Below the pieces are notes generated by a model. That model saw only the letters and a list, made by a program, of their open reading frames with translations. It made no database searches and was not told the origin of the DNA. Of a DNA stretch of 64,000 bases, positions 2-57,953 are shown piece after piece. The DNA lies in the NCBI RefSeq assembly GCF_900143535.1, contig NZ_FRFA01000007.1, positions 186,001 to 250,000 on the forward strand, given 5' to 3'. The stretch comes from Tateyamaria sp. Alg231-49. GTDB taxonomy: Bacteria; Pseudomonadota; Alphaproteobacteria; Rhodobacterales; Rhodobacteraceae. The position numbers were made by a program, and so were the translations under genes. Position 1 is the first letter of the stretch, and each line of letters begins with the position of its first letter.

Positions 2-4152
<4,151 letters not shown>

Positions 4153-4180
4153 GCCGTCTAGTGCCAGAAAGTTCGCAAAT

Positions 4181-4195
4181 GTTCTTAAAAAGTTC
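4181..4195 (+). promoter_or_regulatory. LexA (SOS) box, GTTC-N7-GTTC
   Basis: GTTCTTAAAAAGTTC matches the alphaproteobacterial LexA consensus GTTC-N7-GTTC exactly, with an A/T-only core. A third GTTC lies upstream at 4171, but with the wrong spacing (N6). The box sits 12 bases before a -10-like TAAAAT (4208-4213), so it would cover the -35 region, the right place for repression. The microprotein ATG is 57 bases downstream of the box. I noticed no other exact box in the intergenic regions read by eye. Confidence 0.75.
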
Positions 4196-4252
4196 TTTAC
4201 GGGGTGTTAAAATTGTGAGAACAAAGAAGCAACTTCAAGGAAGGGCACTGAT

Positions 4253-4381
4253 ATGACCACACTCCGCACACTCAAAGATGTCGCAACCCGCGCCGAGGCC
4301 ACTTTGCTTCAGGATGTGATCGGTGCTGCCGCGTTGACTGTGATGCTGGTTGTGGCTTTGCACTTGCCGTCATTGATCTGA
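4253..4381 (+). CDS. 42-aa single-pass membrane microprotein under SOS control
   Basis: The frame runs from ATG 4253 to TGA 4379-4381, preceded by a good ribosome-binding site (AAGGAAGGG) about 5 bases before the ATG. The product begins with a charged amphipathic stretch (MTTLRTLKDVATRAEATLLQ) and ends in one hydrophobic helix of about 20 residues (AAALTVMLVVALHLPSLI). I recall similar roughly 40-residue proteins in other roseobacters but know no function. A perfect LexA box upstream suggests induction by DNA damage. By analogy with SidA of Caulobacter (a very short SOS-induced inner-membrane division inhibitor) or TisB of E. coli, it may arrest division or depolarise the membrane; that is inference. 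The transcript would end at the terminator at 4524-4559. Confidence 0.7.
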   Translation: MTTLRTLKDVATRAEATLLQDVIGAAALTVMLVVALHLPSLI

Positions 4382-4523
4382 ATTTCTGCCTGCGTACTTG
4401 CCTGTGATCCACCTTTGCGCCCGTCCCAATTGGCGTCCTCACCAAGCGGCTCTGCCTGCCGCACGGTGACCCTGTTTCCCGCAGGAAACCCGGATCCGTC
4501 CCCCGCAAGACACGCTTTACTTG
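4382..4523 (+). other. Structured 3' untranslated region of the SOS microprotein
   Basis: About 140 bases separate the microprotein stop from its terminator, long for a 129-base gene. There is no supported ORF on either strand. At 4474-4489 lies a perfect hairpin (GTTTCC, loop CGCA, GGAAAC). No promoter stands out inside, so this is best read as a long structured 3' UTR, which could also release a small RNA. Confidence 0.4.
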
Positions 4524-4559
4524 CGCCGCCATCCTCCCCGGATGAGCGGCGTTTTTTTT
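4524..4559 (+). terminator. Rho-independent terminator after the microprotein
   Basis: A strong GC-rich stem (4524-4534 with 4540-4551, one bulged base, loop TCCCC) is followed by eight T residues. The T-run lies only on the + side, so it ends + strand transcripts from the LexA-box promoter or recG, and faces the convergent Fe-S scaffold gene. Confidence 0.85.
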
Positions 4560-4578: not shown

Positions 4579-5031
4579 TCAGGCGCAGTTCGCCTGTAAT
4601 GCCTGTTCCATTGCCTCAGCCGTGGCTTCGATGGCAAGCAGGATCGACGCGTGCCGATTTTTGAAATCCTTCGCGGGCGCAAGCACCTCGAACCCGTCAA
4701 AGGGGGCGGTTGGCACGTCGCCGCCGGACTTCAGCATTGCGCGCAGACCATCTCGGGCAGTCTCAATCTCAGCAAGGCTGCGTCCAATGACGGCATGGCC
4801 GGTGACAGCCGCTGCCGCCTGACCCAAAGCGCAGGCCTTCACATCCTGGGCAAAATCCGTGATTCGACCGTCTGCGACGCAAACATCCACTGTCACAGCC
4901 GATCCGCACAACGGAGAGCGTTTTTTGACCGTCGCATGTGCGTCTGCAAGACGTTTGGTGTGCGGGATGTCCGCCGCCAGCGCCAAAATGCGGGTCGAAT
5001 AGAGTTTGATCAGGTCGGTATCGGCGGGCAT
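4579..5031 (-). CDS. IscU/NifU-N-like iron-sulfur scaffold protein
   Basis: 150 aa of the IscU fold, which assembles Fe-S clusters before transfer to target proteins. Two of the three canonical cluster cysteines are present (PLCGSA and KACALGQAAA). At the place of the third, usually H-C, the protein reads KNRHASILLAIEA, so the cysteine is alanine here. It may be a specialised or degenerate scaffold rather than housekeeping IscU. The start has a strong ribosome-binding site (GGAGGGG) directly before the ATG. It is divergent from hisI, with a 77-base shared promoter region; this pairing is common in Rhodobacterales. Confidence 0.85.
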   Translation of the reverse strand: MPADTDLIKLYSTRILALAADIPHTKRLADAHATVKKRSPLCGSAVTVDVCVADGRITDFAQDVKACALGQAAAAVTGHAVIGRSLAEIETARDGLRAMLKSGGDVPTAPFDGFEVLAPAKDFKNRHASILLAIEATAEAMEQALQANCA

Positions 5032-52702: not shown

Positions 52703-53575
52703 TCATCCCATCGCGCGCAATCGCTTGATCAGGCTCGATGTATCCCACCGACCGCCGCCCAGCTTTTGCACATCTTTGTAAAACTGATCGACCAGTGCCG
52801 TGACTGGTAGGCTGGCCCCGTTTTCGTCCGCTGTGTCCAGGCAAATCCCAAGGTCTTTGCGCATCCAGTCCACGGCAAAGCCATGATCAAAATGATCATC
52901 CAGCATCGTTTCGTAGCGGTTTGCCATTTGCCAAGAGCCTGCGGCGCCCTGACTGATCACCTCAACCACGGCACGCCCGTCAAGGCCCGCCTTTTCGGCA
53001 AAGTGCAGCGCCTCTGACAGGCCTTGAACAAGGCCTGCGATGGCAATCTGATTGCACATTTTGGTGGTTTGACCGGTGCCGCTTTCACCGATACGGCGGC
53101 ACAGTTTGGCATAGGTGTTCATAACCGGTTCAGCGCGTTCATAAGCGCCGGCGTCCCCACCGCACATGATTGACAGGGCGGCATTCTCAGCCCCCGCCTG
53201 ACCACCCGAAATCGGGGCATCCACATAGCTGATCTGCAAGGCATCTGCCGTAGCATAAAGCTCTGAAGTTACCGCCGCCGACACAGTGGTGTGATCGACA
53301 AAGACAGCGCCAGATTCCATCCCGGCAAACGCACCATCTTCCCCCAGAGTGACCGAGCGCAGGTCATCGTCATTACCCACGCAGGACATCACAAACTCTG
53401 CGCCTGAGGCGGCTTCGCGCGGTGTTGTTGCCATGGCTCCACCATAGGCCTTGACCCAAGCATCGGCCCTTGCCGCCGTCCGATTGTAAACCGTAACGTC
53501 GTGCCCTGCCTTTTGCAGATGCCCTGCCATTGGTCCGCCCATTACGCCCAGACCCAAGAATGCTAGCTTTGCCAT
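52703..53575 (-). CDS. 3-Hydroxyisobutyrate dehydrogenase-family oxidoreductase
   Basis: 290 aa beta-hydroxyacid dehydrogenase. NAD(P) motif LGLGVMGGPMAGHLQKAG at the N-terminus; substrate-binding APISGGQAGAENAALSIMCGG; catalytic lysine in GQTTKMCNQIAIA. Could act on hydroxyisobutyrate, tartronate semialdehyde or similar. Divergent from the acylase gene. Confidence 0.88.
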   Translation of the reverse strand: MAKLAFLGLGVMGGPMAGHLQKAGHDVTVYNRTAARADAWVKAYGGAMATTPREAASGAEFVMSCVGNDDDLRSVTLGEDGAFAGMESGAVFVDHTTVSAAVTSELYATADALQISYVDAPISGGQAGAENAALSIMCGGDAGAYERAEPVMNTYAKLCRRIGESGTGQTTKMCNQIAIAGLVQGLSEALHFAEKAGLDGRAVVEVISQGAAGSWQMANRYETMLDDHFDHGFAVDWMRKDLGICLDTADENGASLPVTALVDQFYKDVQKLGGGRWDTSSLIKRLRAMG

Positions 53576-56732: not shown

Positions 56733-57953
56733 TCAAAGACTGACGCCTTGAACGATTTCAGCCCGTCGCATCCGCTGCATCAAAACAGAGCCAGCCGCAC
56801 TCGCCAACAGCACTGTCACGATCAACGCCATGGGCGTGCCATCAAACAAAAGACCCACTGGAGAGGCGAGAGCTGCTCCCAAAACGGTTGATACGGCCCC
56901 GATGACGGACGCCGCCATTCCCGCAATATGGCCCATTGGTTCCATCGCAATGGCGTTTAGATTGGCGACGGTCAGACCACCCTGAAACATCACCCCCCAA
57001 AGCCAAAAGACAAACACAGGGAACAGGAAAGGCAGACCGGCCAGCATCCACAGCACAAACACTGCCGAAAGAAGCACTTGTGTTGCAAGCGCCCACGTCA
57101 CCAGCCGCCGCATCCCAAAACGCCCTACCACGGCGGCATTGAGCAAGCTGGACACACCGGATGCGATTGCAATCGCGCCAAACCAGAGCGGAAAGCTTTC
57201 CTCGCGCCCAAATGTAACATCAAAGATCGGTTGCACCATCGTCAGCACCGAAAACAGGGTCATCAACATCAGGGTCTGAACATAAATCGACAAACGTACG
57301 GTTGGGTTCGCAAACATCTGGCGCACCGCATCCAGCATCAATGGGACGCGCAAGGGGCGCCGGGCCTCGGCCGGTAGGGTTTCGCCGATGCGTGTTGAGA
57401 ACCAAACAAACAAAACGATGCTGAACACTAGGAAAGCTGCAAAAATCGAACGCCACCCGAACGCATCGGAAATCACGGCCCCGATCAACGGCGCCACTCC
57501 GGGCACCAGCAAAAACACAACCATGGTCAGGGACATGATGCTGGCCATGGCGCGCCCGGAATAAAGGTCTCGGATGATGGCCGCCGACACAACGCGCGGC
57601 CCCGCAGCCCCAAGGCCCTGCAAAACGCGCGCTGCCAACATCAGTTCCAGCGTAGGAGCCATCCAGCTGAGAACAGCGCCAAGCGCGTAGACGGCAAGGC
57701 CTGCGTAGACCACAGGCTTGCGCCCATAGGCATCCGACAACGGCCCGGTAAAGAATGTGCCAGCGCCCATGCCGATCACGAAAAACGTCATAACCAGAGC
57801 GGCTTGCGCCACACCCAGCGGCGCGATGTCGGCGGAAATCGCGGGCAGGGCTGGCATCATCGCGTCGATCGAAAATGCGATTGTTGCGAACATCATCGCC
57901 ATCAGGGCGATAAATTCGACCTTGCTGAGGTTTTGCCCCTTTGGGGTTGCCAC
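56733..57953 (-). CDS. Bcr/CflA-type MFS efflux transporter
   Basis: 406 aa, 12 helices. MFS signature GPLSDAYGRKPVVYAG between helices 2 and 3; helix 4-5 ARVLQGLGAAGPRVVSAAIIRD is the Bcr/CflA hallmark. Probably exports drugs or amino-acid derivatives by proton antiport. Monocistronic. Confidence 0.9.
   Translation of the reverse strand: MATPKGQNLSKVEFIALMAMMFATIAFSIDAMMPALPAISADIAPLGVAQAALVMTFFVIGMGAGTFFTGPLSDAYGRKPVVYAGLAVYALGAVLSWMAPTLELMLAARVLQGLGAAGPRVVSAAIIRDLYSGRAMASIMSLTMVVFLLVPGVAPLIGAVISDAFGWRSIFAAFLVFSIVLFVWFSTRIGETLPAEARRPLRVPLMLDAVRQMFANPTVRLSIYVQTLMLMTLFSVLTMVQPIFDVTFGREESFPLWFGAIAIASGVSSLLNAAVVGRFGMRRLVTWALATQVLLSAVFVLWMLAGLPFLFPVFVFWLWGVMFQGGLTVANLNAIAMEPMGHIAGMAASVIGAVSTVLGAALASPVGLLFDGTPMALIVTVLLASAAGSVLMQRMRRAEIVQGVSL

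Follow-up and report, generated by a model that had tools for sequence, protein, structure and literature searches.

A candidate SOS-controlled membrane microprotein with a structured 3′ RNA behind recG in Rhodobacteraceae

What stops Rhodobacteraceae from dividing while damaged DNA is being repaired? These organisms are among the commonest marine bacteria, and to our knowledge no agent that halts their division after DNA damage has been assigned, nor do we know of a counterpart of SidA in the family. The locus studied here raises this question in a concrete form. In the window (the whole stretch of 64,000 nucleotides that was analysed) a GTTC-N7-GTTC box, GTTCTTAAAAAGTTC, stands behind recG and is followed by a short open reading frame encoding MTTLRTLKDVATRAEATLLQDVIGAAALTVMLVVALHLPSLI. 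A gene that almost all sampled genera possess, with operators resembling those at recA and lexA, would be a natural candidate for the division stop. We describe it here as a candidate brake on Rhodobacteraceae division during DNA repair, a strong one and, it appears, not described before. The parts of the unit are collected in Table 1.

Table 1. Features of the unit and its upstream neighbour, in window coordinates
Feature	Position	Strand	Basis
recG (upstream same-strand neighbour; context, not a member of the unit)	2065..4152	+	RecG domains (Pfam)
Extra GTTC half-site	4171..4174	+	GTTC-N6-GTTC kept in 107/114 loci
Operator A, GTTC-N7-GTTC, GTTCTTAAAAAGTTC, predicted LexA site	4181..4195	+	perfect in 114/114 distinct loci; geometry as at recA/lexA
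TTTACG, -35-like element, assignment uncertain	4196..4201	+	GTTCTTTAC in 105/114; column conservation
Operator B, GAAC-N7-CAAC, GAACAAAGAAGCAAC, probable second LexA site	4219..4233	- (reverse strand GTTG-N7-GTTC)	GAAC-N7-[GC]AAC in 107/114
Ribosome-binding site AAGGAAGGG	4237..4245	+	read from sequence; Shine-Dalgarno-like motif in 110/118 homologues
Microprotein ORF, 42 aa; N-terminal helix and hydrophobic segment 22-39	4253..4381	+	conservation; dN/dS; one predicted helix
Exposed motif CUGCCUG, 5′ single strand	4386..4392	+	fold
Structured 3′ UTR RNA: long closing stem, internal loop, three hairpins	4387..4521	+	covariance model R1; compensated pairs; fold
Exposed motif CGUCCC, loop of hairpin 1	4422..4427	+	fold
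Exposed motif CUGCCUG, loop of hairpin 2	4452..4458	+	fold
Exposed motif CGUCCC, internal loop of closing stem	4497..4502	+	fold
Intrinsic terminator, GC-rich hairpin then T8	4524..4559	+	fold; terminator in 110/114 loci

The microprotein and its distribution

An earlier note, made from the letters of this stretch, had described a 42-codon reading frame with one hydrophobic helix, next to recG and behind a good ribosome-binding site. All of this held when the locus was analysed. The frame lies on the same strand as recG, and recG was found just 5′ of the microprotein, on the same strand, in 117 of 118 homologous loci; the ribosome-binding site is AAGGAAGGG. The segment 22-36 is strongly hydrophobic, with a Kyte-Doolittle mean of 2.71, and AlphaFold2 models a single helix over residues 2-41 with a pLDDT of 92.8. 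Homologues measure 38-42 residues; their last 18 residues are uncharged in 117 of 118 cases, and D21, G24, L36 and P39 are invariant in an alignment of 22 sequences.

Searching with the 42 residues we found the protein in all 20 genomes of the genus, its own included, in 11 of 17 other family members and in none of 24 genomes of other families. With a profile of 22 homologues, matches were obtained in 258 of 298 Rhodobacteraceae genomes, a sample of nearly one genome per genus, about 13% being without a match. In a profile search of 240 genomes spread over the class, convincing matches came from family members only, next to two marginal ones (E 0.005 and 0.007). Within the genus, differences at the three codon positions numbered 1307, 719 and 3311 and the median dN/dS was ~0.12, indicating purifying selection. 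Both results argue for a real protein and rule out an ORF without coding function. Selection on the coding sequence and restriction to the family are thus established by comparison of genomes, and we regard a translated membrane protein as very probable.

The microprotein gave no significant family in Pfam, NCBIfam or PDB, and its only match below 0.01 in PHROGs was to a family of unknown function (E 0.004). A mobile or phage origin was considered and rejected, there being no plasmid or phage match. The literature searched, from which subscription papers were largely absent, held no description of the microprotein. Downstream of the unit lies a convergent ORF of 150 aa (4579-5031, minus strand), whose 3′ end is also present downstream in relatives. 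By sequence it resembles a NifU/IscU-type scaffold protein, with no Pfam match at E 1e-5.

Operators and promoter

Box counts in a single genome are no better than chance. The window holds 3 sites with GTTC-N7-GTTC where 2.0 are expected; genome-wide there are 140, fewer than the 176 of the reversed control pattern. A chance occurrence of the box would therefore hold for this genome taken singly; it is conservation across loci that carries the weight and rules it out. As to the other sites in the window, a perfect GTTC-N7-GTTC at 53117-53131 lies inside a 290-aa minus-strand ORF resembling 3-hydroxyisobutyrate dehydrogenase and is probably due to chance, and a third match is found at 57448.

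Conservation was followed in 114 distinct upstream regions at loci chosen on the strongest protein matches; one genus contributed about 20 of these regions. The extra GTTC, 10 bp upstream of the box, extends operator A to GTTC-N6-GTTC-N7-GTTC, and this triple repeat is present in 107 of the 114 regions; GAGAACAAA is present in 102. A second operator, B, reads GAACAAAGAAGCAAC in the window. Most species have it in imperfect form (CAAC), and the three most diverged loci as a perfect GAAC-N7-GAAC; the distance from operator A to its GAAC is 23 nt in 108 of 118 loci. Comparison among relatives thus establishes the operator pair. The earlier note had placed a perfect box across a promoter. The box stands, and the promoter hexamers are uncertain: the only match of the promoter scan is TTAAAA-N17-TAAAAT at 4185-4213 (TAAAAT at 4208-4213), whereas the element conserved in most relatives is TTTAC or TTGAC directly after the second half-site. 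Of the parts listed here, that note had box, ribosome-binding site and ORF right and had overlooked operator B and the structured 3′ UTR.

In an independent DNA pattern scan for GTTCNNANAAAGTTCTTTAC over a species-level genome collection the loci were chosen on the promoter instead. At least 80 loci matched; among the matches listed, 77 adjoin the microprotein, with the element directly before it, and the remaining 3 of 80 belong to unrelated Bacteroidota/Firmicutes. Just upstream, recG was detected in 76 of these 77 listed loci, the exception (L280) having too little upstream sequence. Since the loci of both samples were picked either on the promoter or on the best protein matches, genomes without a protein match provide a check that matters. 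Among 20 such genomes the promoter pattern was absent in 17 and present behind recG in 3, and these 3 loci carry a small hydrophobic ORF overlooked by the profile, a diverged homologue, with operator B as a perfect GAAC-N7-GAAC. Hence the box predicted the gene where homology could not.

The same geometry is found at the core genes of the SOS response. GAAC-N7-GAAC occurs in the lexA promoters of 24 of 24 family members inspected and in 16 of 17 recA promoters, the single failure being a truncated locus. In Caulobacter the LexA motif is GTTC-N7-GTTC as here (PMC12700426), and it has also been given as (T/A)TGTTC-N6-TGTTC (PMC13384398). The T before the first half-site of operator A is kept in 97%, whereas the base before the second half-site is A, where the lexA/recA sites and the Caulobacter consensus have T; the GTTC-N6 repeat is not a LexA spacing. 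The proposal that the box is the alphaproteobacterial LexA site is well supported by the shared operator at lexA and recA of the same genomes and in Caulobacter. The ORF and the box are conserved together in related genomes (258 of 298 genomes, box in 114 of 114 regions), a strong outcome of the check that the earlier note had named, so that a LexA-controlled single-helix microprotein is well supported. As far as sequence comparison can tell, LexA/SOS control through the predicted operators is highly probable.

Conservation of the box spacer, T[CT]A[AT]AAA, and of its TTTAC flank goes beyond what LexA should require. The stretch 4171-4195 may involve a further regulator or a special kind of promoter.

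The 3′ RNA and its candidate target

The stop codon is followed by an untranslated region of about 150-200 nt with an intrinsic terminator at its end; a stricter pattern scan did not report the terminator of the window. The UTR in the window folds far better than shuffled sequence (z -5.0). Alignment of the UTRs with MAFFT and RNAalifold gave few pairs because hairpin lengths vary, and covariance models (A3 and R1, built from genus sequences alone) were therefore used. Given 98 loci, the genus-built model recovered the syntenic UTR in other genera, with 30 loci at E ≤ 0.01 and 49 of 98 up to E = 1, where the weaker ones are not all certain. In its own genome R1 has one strong match (E 2e-24), the next being at E 0.49. 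A genome-wide search with R1 matched in 3 of 61 family genomes; stricter filters applied there, few candidates were scored, and syntenic copies were found when the loci were given, so that this count is not evidence of absence.

In 35 model-aligned sequences, an alignment fitted to the model and favouring the structure, two-sided changes occur at 28 of 28 pairs, compensated cells number 209 against 65 ± 6 in shuffles, and pairing reaches 87% against 35-42% in slid controls. An alignment-free count of the hairpin-1 stem agrees with the model, with 85 of 101 against 42% in shuffles and many different arm sequences. By comparison of related loci, the RNA structure is thus established. The UTRs are also rich in TGCCT or [TC]GTCCC motifs, with 4.0 per UTR against 0.73 in shuffles, and most of the bases in these motifs are free of pairing (0.78 against 0.38); the conserved UTR, roughly 180 nt long, thus displays some four exposed CUGCCU/UGUCCC motifs. 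A known RNA family was sought in Rfam and none matched at gathering thresholds, the best weak match being sX13 (E 0.24). As one would look for in a dual-function or 3′-UTR-derived regulatory RNA, a conserved structured RNA and a terminator are present here on a coding transcript, and we think it reasonably likely that the 3′ RNA is functional.

In Paracoccus (L317, L292) a shorter microprotein of about 30 residues goes with a reduced 3′ RNA, both operators being kept. Since promoter and ORF persist there while the RNA is shortened, the protein seems, from these sequences, to form the core of the unit, to which the RNA would add a second layer.

A precedent comes from Klebsiella: from the dinI mRNA, which is under LexA control, DinR is released and blocks the ribosome-binding site of ftsZ (PMC10907235). 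For this reason ftsZ was the sole RNA target tested. In Rhodobacteraceae, 21 of 22 ftsZ loci read have CAGGCGGA or CAGGTGGA as their ribosome-binding site, G023 being the exception; the genome studied here has the latter. This site is unlike that of the eight other alphaproteobacterial families shown. At ftsZ loci of the family (L388, L377, L390 and others) a non-canonical conserved ribosome-binding site, ACAGGCGGA, lies about 10-20 nt before the ATG. The exposed UCUGCCUG (UUUGCCUG in G022) could form 8-10 uninterrupted pairs with the ftsZ site in 20 of 20 genomes tested, which are related to one another. This match is equalled by 0-9 of 51 background ribosome-binding sites, typically 3, and thus stands only modestly above background. 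Given these background matches and the kinship of the genomes, the pairing is no more than a lead. Whole-duplex energies of the UTR are only mildly favourable, with a mean z of -0.87 for ftsZ against +0.38 for recA and +0.17 for lexA. It might be possible that ftsZ is the target of the 3′ RNA, but on these sequences we consider it doubtful. A bolder version would be a bifunctional, family-wide SOS brake, with the microprotein on the late divisome, the 3′ RNA occupying the ftsZ ribosome-binding site (UCUGCCUG to CAGGCGGA), and site and RNA having co-evolved; this appears rather unlikely.

Proposed action, rival readings and known systems

From these observations we infer the following course of events. 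LexA, bound to two operators straddling the promoter, would keep a single-gene, Rhodobacteraceae-specific SOS operon switched off. Upon damage RecA would be activated, LexA cleaved and the promoter freed, and a transcript of about 340 nt would be made, ending at the terminator at 4559. The 42-aa product is predicted to span the inner membrane once, its N-terminal helix being cytoplasmic and its second half fully hydrophobic. As its most likely action, in the manner of SidA, it would hold division back until LexA has recovered, by binding a late-divisome component in the membrane. The transcript's 3′ half is a conserved structured RNA with C-rich motifs, probably regulatory in the same programme, for which the ftsZ ribosome-binding site is a candidate target. 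SulA was not found in the 25 family genomes searched, the E. coli control being positive. We would give a division brake as the main action an even chance. The earlier note's reading, a damage-induced division inhibitor or membrane-active peptide, is supported in part, the action itself being a proposal. For the reading as a whole, an SOS-induced, SidA-like, divisome-binding microprotein with a probable regulatory 3′ RNA in a single-gene operon, the balance tips slightly towards yes.

Other readings of the locus have to be weighed against this one. TisB of E. coli is an SOS-induced single-span membrane peptide, and the microprotein might likewise belong with TisB and DinQ among the membrane-active peptides under LexA control: instead of binding the divisome it would, upon damage, reduce membrane potential or ATP and favour dormancy. 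It resembles these peptides in size, in its single helix and in its predicted SOS control; DinQ is a toxic E. coli peptide with a single transmembrane segment, regulated by LexA (PMC3567139), and tight double operators would suit a toxic product. A helix of the TisB type is amphipathic and carries charged residues in the membrane, whereas the membrane half found here is uncharged. Together with the invariant D21, G24, L36 and P39 this favours a specific membrane binding partner, as in SidA, over a pore-former with a charged membrane helix. Moreover, no adjacent antitoxin RNA was identified in a search that covered antisense transcripts unsystematically. We consider a peptide of this kind unlikely. 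It is less likely still that the locus acts chiefly through its RNA, a regulatory RNA induced in the SOS response and bearing several C-rich loops, with an ORF that is accessory or whose translation only regulates the RNA. The strongly compensated structure, the excess of exposed motifs, the absence of an Rfam match and the complementarity of 8-10 bp to a family-specific ftsZ site all speak for it, as does the DinR precedent, in which the protein-coding function of dinI is dispensable for elongation (PMC10907235). However, the protein is under purifying selection, promoter and ORF outlast the full RNA in Paracoccus, and 0-9 of 51 background sites equal the ftsZ match.

The SOS assignment itself could be wrong if another regulator, for example one recognising tandem repeats one helical turn apart, were to bind the GTTC repeats and the gene lay outside the SOS response. 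Three or four repeats at 10, 10 and 11 bp would fit such a protein, and the strongly conserved spacer and TTTAC flank are absent from lexA/recA sites. Yet every region keeps the N7 pair, whereas 7 lack the N6 pair, and operator B repeats the N7 geometry, forming a perfect box in the three most diverged loci. In the genomes scanned the triple repeat is essentially confined to the microprotein locus, so that no other regulon for it is apparent. We hold this to be the least probable of the readings, and a very improbable one.

SOS membrane microproteins as such are known; what appears to be new is one that is lineage-wide and comes with two operators and a conserved structured RNA. If the 3′ RNA has a function, this would make it a dual-function RNA under SOS control throughout the lineage, as against DinR of Klebsiella, whose pairing region is Klebsiella-specific.

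Several known systems invite comparison. Pos19 of Rhodobacter sphaeroides is a small coding RNA from the same bacterial family, reported only from R. sphaeroides strains; it is controlled by RpoE and lies between cxp and fadB on chromosome 2, and the different locus and regulator rule out that our locus is Pos19 (PMC5036791). DinR shares an SOS mRNA for a small protein, a 3′ part that is regulatory RNA (and may be so here) and ftsZ as candidate target (PMC10907235). Protein and RNA are unrelated, however, and the RNA described here is conserved across many genera. With TisB and DinQ the microprotein shares predicted SOS control, size and a single helix (for DinQ, PMC3567139), and it departs from them in its uncharged membrane half, its invariant D, G, L and P, and the lack of an identified antitoxin RNA. 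Precedents for damage-linked division microproteins in an alphaproteobacterium are SidA and DidA of Caulobacter crescentus (PMC4211646). DidA is likewise a damage-linked small single-span membrane protein, which is damage-induced and contacts FtsN, but at 71 aa it is nearly twice as long and is SOS-independent, being controlled by DriD (PMC4211646). SidA, with 29 aa, is an inhibitor of division in the inner membrane; it is under LexA control and interacts with FtsW (PMC4211646). Likeness to SidA extends to an alphaproteobacterial host, a tiny single-span membrane protein and a GTTC-N7-GTTC operator (PMC4211646, PMC12700426), a LexA-type operator and a single-span hydrophobic helix being predicted here. 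The microprotein differs from it in length, in its place behind recG, in its two operators, in its conserved structured 3′ UTR and in its lineage-wide presence in Rhodobacteraceae. On this reading it would work as SidA does, beside which we set it by its features and not as a member of the SidA family.
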